This document shows, piece after piece, positions 12,463 through 16,869 of a stretch of DNA of 25,425 bases. Origin of the DNA: a virus. The stretch is from positions 1 to 25,425 of IMG/VR virus record IMGVR_UViG_3300025154_000361; one strand, 5' to 3'. The notes beneath the pieces are model-generated. The model had not been told where the DNA came from. It saw only the letters and a list, made by a program, of their open reading frames with translations, and searched no databases. How positions within the stretch are numbered: position 1 is the stretch's first letter; the number at the start of each line of letters is the position of its first letter. The translations under genes were made by a program, and so were the position numbers.

Positions 12463-13107
12463 ATGGAATACACTGAATCATCCTACAAAGAACATTGCAA
12501 CGAATTAACCACAGTTTGGTTTAGGCTTCTTTCTTCCAGAGAAAAAGGATTATATTTCTCAATGAAACTTGCTTATTGGGCTTGTTCTGGATGTTTACCG
12601 GCGAACATAAAGGATTTATCAAGTATATTGAATGTAAATTGTAATGAAATAATTGAATCATTGGATGCAATTATGGAAACAAATATCTTTTATGAAAAAG
12701 ATGGATTTTTAATCCACCAAGAATTGGAACAGTGTCTAAATAATAAAAAAGCATCTACGGATAAAAGACTTGAATCTCGTGGACTAATTAGAAAACAAGA
12801 CAGAAAAAGACTGAATAGTGATGATTGGCTAATTATTAAAAAGAGAATTTTTGAACGTGATAATTACACTTGTTTGTATTGTAGTGTTCGTGGAGTAAGG
12901 CTTGAATGTGACCATATAATACCAATAGCAAAAGGTGGGTCGAATGAAGAATTAAATTTAGCAACAGCATGTGTGCTGTGTAATAGGGAAAAGCGTGATT
13001 CGTTAATTGAAGATTGGCTTAAGAAAAACAAAAGATTAAAGGTTATGCCGATATTCAAATTTAACAACAAATACACTTGCCCAGACGATACGCCGTTTGA
13101 GCTGTAA
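12463..13107 (+). CDS. HNH endonuclease with DUF1376-like N-terminal domain
   Basis: A 214-residue protein. Residues about 18-90 resemble a DUF1376-like phage domain with winged-helix character (REKGLYFSMKLAYWACSGCL, then LSSILNVNCNEIIESL). Residues about 125-180 are an HNH nuclease: CLYC (137-140), ECDHIIPIAKGGSNEELN with the catalytic Asp150-His151, and CVLCNREK (170-176). The zinc cysteines are intact, so it should be active. It is the first coding gene after PR and follows a long structured leader. The ribosome-binding site GAAAGG lies in a small hairpin. The stop codon TAA is part of an operator-like palindrome (13103-13117). AT-rich codon use unlike the GC-balanced leader suggests recent arrival. 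Confidence 0.85.
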   Translation: MEYTESSYKEHCNELTTVWFRLLSSREKGLYFSMKLAYWACSGCLPANIKDLSSILNVNCNEIIESLDAIMETNIFYEKDGFLIHQELEQCLNNKKASTDKRLESRGLIRKQDRKRLNSDDWLIIKKRIFERDNYTCLYCSVRGVRLECDHIIPIAKGGSNEELNLATACVLCNREKRDSLIEDWLKKNKRLKVMPIFKFNNKYTCPDDTPFEL

Positions 13108-13131: not shown

Positions 13132-13797
13132 ATGACAATCACTTTGCTCAATACCGATTGCATGGCATTTATGGCGACATTGCCGGATAAGGCGTTTGAT
13201 TTGGCGATTGTTGATCCGCCATATGGGATATTAAATAAGACGAAACGAGGCTCTCAACGAAGTCCGCATCTTTACAGTGTGCGCGGTGAAGATTGGGATT
13301 ATGTCCCAGATAAAGAATATTTCGATGAATTGATGCGGGTTAGCAATAACCAGATAATCTGTGGTGGTAATTACTTCAGTTTGCCGTTAAGCAACGCATG
13401 GATTTTTTGGCACAAGCACCAGCCAATAAGCAATTATTCAGTTGGGGAAATGTTGTGGACATCATTTGAAATGAATACGAAGATTTTTGATTTTCCATGC
13501 TACGGGAATATTGGGCAAGATGTGGTTAGATTTCACCCAACCCAAAAGCCCGTAAAGCTCTACGAATGGCTCTTGACCAACTACGCCAAGCCCGGCCAGC
13601 GCATCCTTGACACACATGGTGGGTCAATGTCAATCGCCATAGCCTGCCACAACCTCGGATATGACCTGACGCTATGCGAACTGGACGAAGATTATTACAA
13701 TGCAGGTGTGGCTAGATTCGAGCAGCACAAGGCGCAAGGATCGCTGTTCGAGCCGGAGCCGGTCAGGACAACCAGTGTTCAATCTTCCTGTATTTAA
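13132..13797 (+). CDS. DNA methyltransferase, N6-adenine or N4-cytosine type
   Basis: A 221-residue enzyme with DPPYG at 28-32 (motif IV) ahead of the cofactor site, then HPTQKPVKLYEWLLTNY at 135-151 and ILDTHGGSMSIAIA (motif I) near 158-171, the beta-class order. It transfers methyl from SAM to an exocyclic amine in DNA; the short target-recognition part lies between about 33 and 120. No partner endonuclease is present, so it is an orphan phage enzyme likely protecting against host restriction or regulating phage genes. The start is preceded by AGGGAACCAAAATGAC, nearly the same string as before the next gene. Confidence 0.9.
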   Translation: MTITLLNTDCMAFMATLPDKAFDLAIVDPPYGILNKTKRGSQRSPHLYSVRGEDWDYVPDKEYFDELMRVSNNQIICGGNYFSLPLSNAWIFWHKHQPISNYSVGEMLWTSFEMNTKIFDFPCYGNIGQDVVRFHPTQKPVKLYEWLLTNYAKPGQRILDTHGGSMSIAIACHNLGYDLTLCELDEDYYNAGVARFEQHKAQGSLFEPEPVRTTSVQSSCI

Positions 13798-13999: not shown

Positions 14000-15529
14000 A
14001 TGCGATACCTTAGTCTTTTTTCTGGAATTGAAGCGGCGAGTCAGGCGTTTATTCCGCTAGGTTGGGAATGCGTTGGGGTGGCTGAAATTGAGCCGTTTCC
14101 ATGTAAAGTATTGGCGCATCATTATCCAGACGTACCGAATCTAGGTAGTGTCACTGAAATAACAAAAGAACAGATAGAATCACTTGGGCATATTGACTTG
14201 GTAGTAGGCGGATTCCCTTGCCAAGATTTATCTATAGCTGGTAAAAGAAAGGGATTACAAAATGAAGATGGAAGCGCAACAAGGTCTGGACTTTTCTTCA
14301 CCGCAATGCGAATCATCGAATGGGCAAAGCCACGATGGGTCGTCGTTGAGAATGTGCCCGGATTATATAGCAGCCAAAAAGGGCGAGACTTTGCTTCCGT
14401 GGTTGGAGAAATGGCTGGGTGCGAATTTGACGTACCGAGAGATGGATGGAAAAATGCCGGTTGTGCAGTCGGCGAAAACGGACTTGTCGAGTGGATCACT
14501 CTGGATGCGCAATACTGCCGAACACCTGAGTACCCTAGAGCCGTCCCACAAAGACGAAGGCGTGTCTTCGTTGTCCGAGATTCTGGAGACTGGCAAAGTA
14601 GAAAACCGCTATTTCTTGAGCCGGAAGGCTTGTGCGGGAATCCTCCGCCGAGCAGAAAAACGAGGGAAGAAGTTGCCGGAACAGTTGCGGGTAGCCTTGA
14701 TAGCGAATGCGGAGGCGGTAAACTAACGCATCAATCAATAATGAATGGTCATATCATAAAAACATCATCTGAAATATCCCCACCACTCGAAACGCAAGTT
14801 GGTGGATTAAGGCAACCATGTACGCAAGCATACGTTACAACTATGCCCGCTATTCCAGCGTCATTACACAAAGGGTTGGGGCATAATAAAGATGAATTTC
14901 TGACAATCGCACTAACAGGTAACATGGATGCAATTCCAGATGTAGCACGTACTTTGAGCTTCCGTTATGATTCCAGTTATTGTGCAGATAGAGGAATGGA
15001 TGTGATAGCACTAGCAGGTAACACCATAGGTCGCGAACCAGAAAACGGCGGTAACGGAACTGGCTTCGATGAATCAGGAGCTAGTTATACGCTTACTAAG
15101 ACTGATGTTCATGCGGTGGCGTATCCAATTAACACTCAAATTGCTATGCGCCATGAAAAAACTGGAGAAGGGACTGGAATGGGCATTGGTATTGATGGAG
15201 ACCCAGCATATACGTTACAAGCTGCACATAGCCATGCGGTGGCGTTTCATGTTGATGCACAACCGGATGAAATGAATTTCAGCACCGTAACAACATCAAC
15301 TTTAACAAAATCACAACATGCTGGAGTAATGCAACCAAATATGCAAGTCCGCAGATTAACTCCAATAGAATGCGCCAGACTTCAGGCGTTTCCTGACAAC
15401 TTCCTATCACAAGTAAAAGGATACTCAGACAGCGCGGCTTACAAGAGTTTAGGTAATTCGATGGCCTGCAATGTAATGGCTGTCATTGGACAGAAAATAC
15501 AGCAAGCAAGCCAATTATCCGAAAAATAG
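14000..15529 (+). CDS. DNA (cytosine-5) methyltransferase, phage type
   Basis: A 509-residue m5C methyltransferase. Motif I FSGIEAAS is at 7-14, the catalytic PCQ in GGFPCQDLS with Cys74, ENV at 117-119, QRRRRVF at 184-190, and the late motifs VRRLTPIECARLQAFPDNF and YKSLGNSMACNV near the C-terminus. The middle (about 225-455) is a long, variable target-recognition region with repeated AVAYPINTQ/HAVAFHVDAQ segments. It methylates C5 of cytosine in a short site. It follows two small genes and has no strong Shine-Dalgarno. A second frame nested in it (14262-14726) encodes a protein-like sequence, a notable overprint. Confidence 0.92.
   Translation: MRYLSLFSGIEAASQAFIPLGWECVGVAEIEPFPCKVLAHHYPDVPNLGSVTEITKEQIESLGHIDLVVGGFPCQDLSIAGKRKGLQNEDGSATRSGLFFTAMRIIEWAKPRWVVVENVPGLYSSQKGRDFASVVGEMAGCEFDVPRDGWKNAGCAVGENGLVEWITLDAQYCRTPEYPRAVPQRRRRVFVVRDSGDWQSRKPLFLEPEGLCGNPPPSRKTREEVAGTVAGSLDSECGGGKLTHQSIMNGHIIKTSSEISPPLETQVGGLRQPCTQAYVTTMPAIPASLHKGLGHNKDEFLTIALTGNMDAIPDVARTLSFRYDSSYCADRGMDVIALAGNTIGREPENGGNGTGFDESGASYTLTKTDVHAVAYPINTQIAMRHEKTGEGTGMGIGIDGDPAYTLQAAHSHAVAFHVDAQPDEMNFSTVTTSTLTKSQHAGVMQPNMQVRRLTPIECARLQAFPDNFLSQVKGYSDSAAYKSLGNSMACNVMAVIGQKIQQASQLSEK
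14262..14726 (+). CDS. Overprinted gene nested inside the m5C methyltransferase
   Basis: In the +1 frame relative to the methyltransferase, 154 codons are open from the ATG at 14262, with GAAAGGG nine bases upstream. The C-terminal half reads SLSEILETGKVENRYFLSRK, then ACAGILRRAEKRGKKLPEQL. As I recall, this SLS.ILETG....YFLS.KAC.GILRRAEKRGK.LP pattern recurs in other phages as a small protein overlapping or adjacent to m5C methyltransferase genes; a search should confirm it. The methyltransferase frame in the same bases reads QRRRRVFVVRDSGDW... Both frames appear constrained. The function is unknown; a partner of the methyltransferase is one possibility. Confidence 0.6.
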   Translation: MKMEAQQGLDFSSPQCESSNGQSHDGSSLRMCPDYIAAKKGETLLPWLEKWLGANLTYREMDGKMPVVQSAKTDLSSGSLWMRNTAEHLSTLEPSHKDEGVSSLSEILETGKVENRYFLSRKACAGILRRAEKRGKKLPEQLRVALIANAEAVN

Positions 15530-15735: not shown

Positions 15736-15764
15736 TTGCATTTATATTTAAGTATGCGTATAGT
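15736..15764 (+). promoter_or_regulatory. Promoter of tnpB
   Basis: TTGCAT (15736-15741), 17-base spacer, TATAGT (15759-15764). The -10 box ends seven bases before the chosen tnpB ATG, so this message may also be leaderless or nearly so. Confidence 0.55.
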
Positions 15765-15771
15765 GTACCAC

Positions 15772-16869
15772 ATGAAATCCAAAACGCAAATTAAAACTTT
15801 GAAAGTTAGAATTAAGGACAAACACGCTGCTATTCTTAATCAATGGGCTTTTGAAGTAAACCAAGTATGGAATGCAGCAAACGAGTTGAGCGCAGATTAT
15901 TCATGGGTTCCTATTCCTGAGGTTGGATATATAAATTGCGGAACATCAGAATATGATTTGCAGAAAGAGCTTAAAACTATTCGAGCAGAACGTAATTTTT
16001 CAATTAGTGCTGTAACTATACAAAGCGTTATTTCTCAACATGCAAAATCTCGCCGTCAATTCAAGAAAAACAAACTTCAATGGAGATGTTCAAGCGGTTC
16101 AAAGCGTTCATTAGGGTGGGTTCCATTTAAGTCTGCTGGCGTTAAATTTATCAATGGTCAAGTACGATTTTGTGGGAAATTATTCAGTATTTGGGATAGT
16201 TATGATTTATCAAAATATGAATTAGGTACTGGTTCATTCTCGCAAGATTCTCGTGGTCGTTGGTATTTTAATACGACAATTAAGGTTGAAATAAAATCGT
16301 CAGAAGGTAAAACATCTGTTGGAATTGATTTAGGTCTTAAAACAATAGCAACTTGTTCTGACGGAACTGTATTTGAACGCAGGCGTATAACAGATGAATT
16401 CGCAAAAGAATTAGCAACAGCACAAGGCGCAAAAAAGAAAAATCGTGTTAGGGCGATACATGCAAAGATTAAAAATACCCGTAGCGATGCCATACATAAA
16501 TTCACTACTACAATGGCTGAAAACTATGGTGCTATTTTTATAGGTGATGTTAGTAGTAAAAAATTGACTAAAACCAAAATGGCAAAGTCAGTATTAGATG
16601 CTGGATGGGGTATGTTAAAGACACAACTGAAATATAAAGCGATAGCGCGGTCAGTTATGTTTGAAGAAATAAATGAAAAGTACACCACCCAGATTTGTTC
16701 GTGTTGCGGAGTAATATCCGGCAATAGTCCGAAAGGTAGAGCAGGTCTTGGAATAAGAGAATGGATTTGTTGTGAATGTGGTGCAATTCACGACCGCGAT
16801 ATAAATGCGGCAAAAAACATTCTCGCGCTCGGGCATGAGCGTCTAGCTGTAGGAATCTCCGTCCTTTAG
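15772..16869 (+). CDS. tnpB: TnpB-family RNA-guided nuclease (IS605 OrfB)
   Basis: From the ATG at 15772 the protein is 365 residues, a normal TnpB length. It has the N-terminal helical/OrfB_IS605 part, the first RuvC motif VGIDLGLKTIATCSDG (Asp186), a middle motif IFIGDVSSKKLTKTKMAKS, a zinc finger CSCCG...CCECG (near 309-336) and the third motif HDRDINAAKNI. TnpB uses an RNA made from the element's right end to cut target DNA. At the place of the usual middle glutamate (E-D-L type motif) there is Asp259 in GDVSS. A large TnpB subgroup shows Asn or Asp here (VSS-type) and may use a different glutamate, so activity is not certain. No ribosome-binding site is seen. Confidence 0.88.
   Translation: MKSKTQIKTLKVRIKDKHAAILNQWAFEVNQVWNAANELSADYSWVPIPEVGYINCGTSEYDLQKELKTIRAERNFSISAVTIQSVISQHAKSRRQFKKNKLQWRCSSGSKRSLGWVPFKSAGVKFINGQVRFCGKLFSIWDSYDLSKYELGTGSFSQDSRGRWYFNTTIKVEIKSSEGKTSVGIDLGLKTIATCSDGTVFERRRITDEFAKELATAQGAKKKNRVRAIHAKIKNTRSDAIHKFTTTMAENYGAIFIGDVSSKKLTKTKMAKSVLDAGWGMLKTQLKYKAIARSVMFEEINEKYTTQICSCCGVISGNSPKGRAGLGIREWICCECGAIHDRDINAAKNILALGHERLAVGISVL

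Follow-up and report, generated by a model that had tools for sequence, protein, structure and literature searches.

The locus studied here raises the question of whether a second reading frame, lying inside a phage m5C methyltransferase gene, encodes a protein in its own right and, if so, what that protein would do. The gene is part of a 25.4 kb virus record, referred to here as the window. The outer frame matched PF00145 (E 6.4e-45), which identifies it as an m5C methyltransferase, as well as phrog_116 (E 2.6e-77). Motifs I, IV (PCQ), VI (ENV), VIII, IX, and X are all readable in it; the catalytic Cys74 lies within GGFPCQD, and motif IX (RRLTPIECARLQAFP) is found in the methyltransferase frame from about position 15350 (residues about 451-466). 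As stated in the original prediction, a 154-codon frame is entirely contained within this gene, and the shared bases read QRRRRVFVV (residues 184-192) in the methyltransferase frame (Table 1). The nested ORF is offset by +1, meaning that its second codon position coincides with the wobble position of the methyltransferase and that methyltransferase position 1 is the nested wobble position. A stop in the +1 frame lies 8 codons upstream of the nested ATG, and the nested stop falls at methyltransferase residue 242, about 58 codons past the start of motif VIII. The predicted ribosome-binding site is present, but weak in the window.

Table 1 Features of the overlapping reading frames, in window coordinates
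Feature	Position	Strand	Evidence
m5C DNA methyltransferase, 509 aa, frame 0	14000..15529	+	PF00145, phrog_116
Nested +1-frame ORF, 154 aa, stop included, ATG start	14262..14726	+	ORF list, homologues, codon tests
AAGG resembling a weak Shine-Dalgarno sequence, 9 nt ahead of the nested ATG	14249..14252	+	sequence
Conserved nested tail, nested residues 98-150, SLSEILETG..RYFLS.KACAGILRRAEKRGKKLPEQL..AL	14553..14711	+	alignment, profile comparison
Methyltransferase motif VIII QRRRRVF, residues 184-190, frame 0, overlying the start of the nested tail	14549..14569	+	sequence
Methyltransferase-frame linker VVRDSGDWQSRKPLFLEPEGLCGNPPPSRK... on the same bases as the nested tail	14570..14711	+	codon-redraw test, profile search

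The surroundings of the gene were also inspected. Just upstream, window positions 13132-13797 (+) and 12463-13107 (+) encode an N6/N4 DNA methyltransferase (PF01555) and an HNH protein, which form a small modification cluster with the m5C methyltransferase. Downstream of the methyltransferase gene lies a TnpB-like gene (window 15736-16869, +; OrfB_IS605 E 1.5e-12, Cas12f1-like_TNB E 1.3e-21).

Selection acts on both frames of the overlap. Synonymous-codon identity was compared among 77 of the 78 methyltransferases collected with the N-terminus of the window enzyme (57 representatives, 1584 pairs), a set that replaced an earlier one (82 of 238) in which biased and unbiased loci were mixed. Over residues 2-88, before the nested ORF, the ratio of observed to expected identity was 1.05-1.14. 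Inside the ORF it climbed via 1.15-1.76 to 2.04-2.95 at residues 182-232 and was still 2.10 at residues 230-244, while the values directly past the nested stop were 1.15, 1.05, and 1.01. Further downstream the ratio was 0.99-1.23, and over motifs IX-X 0.99-1.09. The excess of synonymous constraint is confined to the inner ORF, the pattern of a same-strand overprinted pair. The most variable codon position likewise switched at residues 196-228, from methyltransferase position 3 (0.51-0.75 bits there) to position 1 (1.10-1.44 bits). Among 29 close relatives of P1, 24 of the 39 variable sites before the ORF fell on methyltransferase position 3, and those in the tail numbered 23, 13, and 15 on positions 1, 2, and 3.

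A codon-redraw test over methyltransferase residues 183-236 gave the same picture in both directions (47 of 57 sequences, gap-free; the nulls ignore shared ancestry). When the methyltransferase protein was fixed and its codons redrawn, the observed identity of the nested frame was 0.633 against 0.222 (sd 0.003), and nested stops occurred in 1 of 47 sequences as opposed to 31.7 expected. When the nested protein was fixed instead, methyltransferase identity was 0.487 against 0.228 (sd 0.004), and stops occurred in 0/47 sequences with 39.5 expected. The ratio in control residues 2-50 was 1.09 compared with 2.86 in the overlap, two of the redraw controls having too few rows. The third frame also showed a raised ratio in the overlap (2.16), because the bases themselves are conserved, but it carried stops in 46 of 47 sequences. 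The inner frame is therefore almost free of stops and conserved beyond what the outer frame demands, and the redraw results in both directions, together with the control ratio, indicate that both reading frames are constrained. Gene by gene, the open-frame test gave p below 0.05 for 35 of 70 genes (70 distinct of 78), so half of them were not significant alone.

The original prediction had proposed two constrained proteins on the same bases, to be checked by synonymous-site constraint in both frames across homologues and abandoned if the nested frame proved broken in homologues with an intact methyltransferase. The excess, reaching 2.95, the phase flip, the redraw tests, and the open frame agree with the proposal. 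The breakage did not occur: beyond the near absence of nested stops in the redraw set, the frame ran open through the 60 codons preceding the tail in 85 of 89 loci, with 16.1 (sd 3.3) expected (210 of 235 loci kept, then reduced to the 89 that were non-redundant). Taken together, the codon patterns make it near certain that the nested ORF is coding. Constraint is uneven along its length, the first two thirds of its product being much less constrained than the tail. Weak nested-like N-terminal matches were also found in a sister methyltransferase family (10 loci, E 2e-3 to 7e-7), suggesting that the N-terminal similarity is partly a by-product of methyltransferase conservation; N-terminal similarity alone was rejected as proof of coding for this reason.

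The nested frame is widely distributed. Searches with tblastn matched it in 131 phage records and in 530 plasmid records, 448 of which were Escherichia; among the plasmid rows listed, nearly all were annotated as Dam-family methyltransferases, as in P1-like phage-plasmids. The tail was confirmed in at least 595 IMG/VR stretches (595 of 599 among the pattern matches listed). Its predicted recurrence with other phage m5C methyltransferases is thereby borne out. To avoid preselecting the answer, we also picked methyltransferases solely by N-terminal residues upstream of the nested ORF. Three queries, namely residues 1-85 of the window enzyme, 1-86 of P1 Dmt, and 1-57 of a third methyltransferase (L158), yielded 240 loci, with some contigs in common between the sets, and the tail was present in 78/80, 80/80, and 77/80 of them, respectively. 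In four of the five remaining loci, the contig ended too soon (L138, L139, L383, L423). The fifth (L385) has an intact methyltransferase and a nested tail that has diverged beyond detection, and is the single natural exception seen. With the tail in 235 of 240 loci, and in 235 of the 236 that could be evaluated, the overlapping pair is as widespread as had been suspected.

The tail was found in 0/30 of the best PF00145 loci of 60 Pseudomonadota genomes and in 0/30 loci of R-M type m5C methyltransferases, two control sets that partly overlap and share contigs. It was present in 1 of 80 loci picked with the N-terminus of a mycobacteriophage methyltransferase, most of which belong to the sister family without QRRRR. 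At the level of genomes, nested matches occurred in 5/299 Pseudomonadota, in 5/199 of the phylum of our acidobacterial handle, and in 12/194 of the phylum of our verrucomicrobial handle; 3 of these 12 were weak (E 5e-7 to 8e-4), and two verrucomicrobial matches (L543 and L544) contained one stop each. The bearers include phages or prophages of Pseudomonadota, Acidobacteriota, Verrucomicrobiota, mycobacteria, cyanobacteria, and several Gram-positive groups.

Linkage to the methyltransferase was exclusive: among the loci examined, no nested copy free of a methyltransferase gene was found, except in one prophage remnant. This linkage may simply reflect the difficulty of moving an overprinted gene. 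The apparent remnant (L524) has lost the methyltransferase N-terminus, and its nested tail is still open (77 codons). In-frame fusions of methyltransferase and tail were seen in 3 of 435 tail-bearing loci and were read as artefacts or noise (L375, an assembly gap; L113, frame-shifted; L551, weak); L431 is likewise frame-shifted.

Family searches gave a divided answer. At E<=0.01, 0/40 nested proteins matched a Pfam or NCBIfam family. The profile search that had been proposed for the nested protein was productive in PHROG, where phrog_16143 matched 26/40 members (best E 7.2e-14; window protein 4.7e-4) and phrog_1008 matched 4/40. Both families are labelled DNA methyltransferase, a label probably carried over from the overlapping gene. 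A PDB sequence search with the nested protein returned 0 matches, and structural comparison of the tail reached Z 3.3 at most among 48 chains. Apart from one viral entry, Thibault gp104, and a weak match (E 0.16) labelled cytosine methyltransferase, the fold search gave nothing meaningful. Each database record examined annotates just one of the two frames, and no report of the overlap was found in the literature searched, which was largely open-access.

The affinity of the tail became apparent from comparisons with R-M type enzymes. Across 40 aligned nested proteins, L104, L108, L119, A123, G126, I127, R130, and R134 are invariant, and a (K)YFLS or KYYLS core is kept in distant nested frames of other methyltransferase clades (L527-L531, L549). 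AlphaFold modelled the nested protein with a mean pLDDT of 62.9 and was confident only for the tail, for which a two-helix hairpin is predicted (helices 121-134 and 140-151); the N-terminal part of about 100 aa is predicted to be disordered. A profile of the tail matched R-M type m5C methyltransferases just after motif VIII (best E 1.3e-4 among 16 proteins), where a counterpart stands in frame, for example LADILENDEDVPESYFLSA in L561 and VGDILEKDVDDKYTISDRLWAGHQRRK in L554. Using 9 of the 16 canonical methyltransferases (7 were dropped as other types), hhalign aligned tail and R-M segment with P 1.9e-6, which improved to 3.8e-7 once six divergent tails were included. A profile built from the nine R-M type enzymes matched 392 of 435 nested proteins at E<=1 and 165 at E<=0.01 (Z 1000). 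The same profile matched 0/435 of the methyltransferase-frame proteins of the nested-bearing genes at E<=1, and in the window the profile search detected no canonical segment in the methyltransferase-frame linker, a stretch whose conservation exceeds what the nested frame imposes. Judged by profile search and hhalign, the small polypeptide has the canonical piece and the large one lacks it, one trait of a two-polypeptide m5C methyltransferase.

In two R-M type methyltransferases (L252, L254), the distance from the start of motif VIII to the canonical segment is 27-29 residues; in the window it is 22 nt, to the tail segment in the +1 frame. We take the canonical segment to be placed between motif VIII and the target-recognition domain. 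On the strength of the profile comparisons, the nested tail is homologous to this in-frame segment of R-M type methyltransferases and has no detectable counterpart in its own methyltransferase frame, a relationship that is new. We had considered the whole nested protein a new invention, an idea dropped for the tail after this match. A tree of 46 methyltransferases (of 53 rows) required 3 changes for the nested label and 1 for the in-frame segment; the three changes may reflect one or several origins of the nested frame. No canonical segment was noticed in the sequences inspected of the sister phage methyltransferases, which also carry no nested tail. This suggests that the inter-domain segment is probably not required by every m5C methyltransferase.

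Considering that the segment is undetectable in the methyltransferase chain and is carried by a separately started frame, we propose that the nested product is a second subunit. The nested ORF would be translated from its own start inside the methyltransferase message, giving a product of about 100 weakly conserved N-terminal residues and a conserved helical tail of about 50 aa. This product would bind its methyltransferase, supply in trans the inter-domain piece displaced from the enzyme into the overlapping +1 frame, and be needed for activity. The phage enzyme would then be a two-polypeptide m5C methyltransferase made from one stretch of DNA. The arrangement could have arisen by a frame-shifting deletion of about 62-65 nt (3n+2), followed by a second shift that restored the frame before the target-recognition domain. 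On the sequence comparisons at hand, the nested product probably acts on the methyltransferase in trans, as a second subunit, and we consider the full model, a real internally started gene whose product completes the enzyme, about evenly balanced between right and wrong.

The same tail homology and the same linkage would also fit a regulator or inhibitor, whose tail mimics the inter-domain segment and, instead of completing the enzyme, blocks it or sets its timing. A temperate phage could benefit from control over when a toxic or self-marking enzyme acts. However, the segment is undetectable in all 435 methyltransferase frames, a result easier to reconcile with supply in trans than with competition; we regard a regulator as rather unlikely. 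An equally doubtful alternative is that this small basic protein acts elsewhere, for instance in nucleic-acid binding or anti-defence, and that the homology of the segment reflects its origin only. The tail does carry conserved basic residues (R130 and R134 invariant, R129 and K136 near-invariant), and the nested family has no known function in the Pfam, NCBIfam, and PHROG searches. Against this stand the exclusive linkage to the methyltransferase, bar the one remnant, and a fold search that gave nothing usable.

The second-subunit reading also includes entry into the nested frame at its own start. The first start after the upstream stop was preceded by a Shine-Dalgarno match of at least 4 bases in 44/88 loci, compared with 614/4715 other out-of-frame starts in the same genes; for at least 6 bases, the numbers were 9/88 and 22/4715. 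The start codons vary (46 ATG, 24 TTG, and 18 GTG; n=88). Together, the open frame upstream of the tail and the enriched start favour internal initiation over programmed frameshifting, by which ribosomes would reach the +1 frame near motif VIII and produce a truncated methyltransferase ending in the tail. Frameshifting would explain why the tail is the ancestral methyltransferase reading of the segment and why conservation peaks exactly after motif VIII. Yet the +1 frame is open far upstream of motif VIII and closed by a stop shortly before the start codon, and the product would be devoid of the target-recognition domain and motifs IX-X, making frameshifting very improbable. That the open frame comes from an element in the RNA or DNA, or simply from codon bias plus methyltransferase conservation, can be set aside almost entirely: long chance +1 frames are frequent in high-GC genes, half of the single genes are not significant, and the weak matches in the sister family stem from methyltransferase conservation, but the amino-acid conservation of the nested frame, the period-three flip, and the avoidance of stops argue otherwise, and low-GC members (L158, L132) keep the tail though their methyltransferase frame differs. 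Points that do weigh against the second-subunit reading are the AlphaFold model with its confidence limited to the tail, the variable starts, the Shine-Dalgarno match of at least 4 bases in just half of the loci, the locus with a diverged tail (L385), and the sister family without the tail.

Among known systems, the nearest precedent is M.EcoHK31I, whose small subunit reportedly comes from a different frame within the gene for the large one; M.EaeI is of this type as well. Like the proposed phage pair, M.EcoHK31I has two polypeptides per m5C methyltransferase; it comes from an R-M system and the nested pair from a phage family, and the two were compared by description. In PMC3404938, the two polypeptides of M.EcoHK31I form one m5C methyltransferase, with motif IX on the small subunit, and M.AquI is given as a naturally split m5C methyltransferase. 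As motif IX stands in the methyltransferase frame of the phage family, and not on the small polypeptide, we do not claim that the nested pair belongs with M.EcoHK31I. M.AquI is split within the variable region, and its second subunit carries motifs IX-X. Among R-M type enzymes (relatives of M.HhaI), several contain an in-frame L.DILE..VDEKY.LS.K..AG..RR that resembles the nested tail; they hold the segment in cis and have no nested tail frame, whereas the phage family holds it in the overlapping frame. Lambda Rz/Rz1 is the classic case of phage genes nested in two frames, but its products are lysis proteins and unrelated to the nested methyltransferase pair.

The dmt gene of P1 carries the nested ORF (L241:1214-1702), with a likely start at ATG 1229 preceded by GGAG. 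The P1 record annotates dmt alone, as a methyltransferase that is bifunctional with an adenine methyltransferase, and notes its cytosine activity as 'perhaps at C5 cytosine'. In PMC10695390, dmt was dispensable for plaquing by CRISPRi. Any role of the nested protein would therefore be non-essential for lytic growth in that laboratory host; dispensability for plaquing says nothing about methylation.

In mycobacteriophage Thibault, gp104 (81 aa) corresponds to the nested tail and is annotated as a gene of unknown function; neither gp104 nor phrog_16143 is described as overlapping a methyltransferase. Unlike that of the window, the Thibault methyltransferase is interrupted by an HNH gene (L282:1500-3360). 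Both this gene and a different insertion, in L100, interrupt the overlap immediately past motif VIII, and the tail is readable downstream. A close relative of the window methyltransferase (L003:1725-4007; also L002, L004, L009) has an in-frame insertion of ~337 codons directly after the catalytic Cys74. A Hint_2 domain (Pfam) begins at the insertion point, and the insertion is probably an intein at the catalytic cysteine. In mycobacteriophage Dallas (L250:2050-3200), the methyltransferase frame stops at about 2905 and motifs IX-X go on in the +1 frame, where the annotation gives a second DNA methylase; the genes of Phoebus (L251) are arranged in the same way. The Dallas gene may be split or may be read by a +1 frameshift.

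If both frames are translated, the pair would in our judgement be among the most widely spread overlapping gene pairs of tailed phages. It would also be a naturally occurring case of a protein segment that moved between frames, with both readable in hundreds of genomes. Tentatively, and with somewhat less confidence than for the second-subunit model itself, we suggest that a large and ancient class of phage m5C methyltransferases, including P1 Dmt, works with two subunits, the second of them overprinted on the first. Should the nested protein prove to be a subunit, phage methyltransferases expressed from recoded synthetic genes would silently lack it, and the cytosine activity of P1 Dmt would need retesting.
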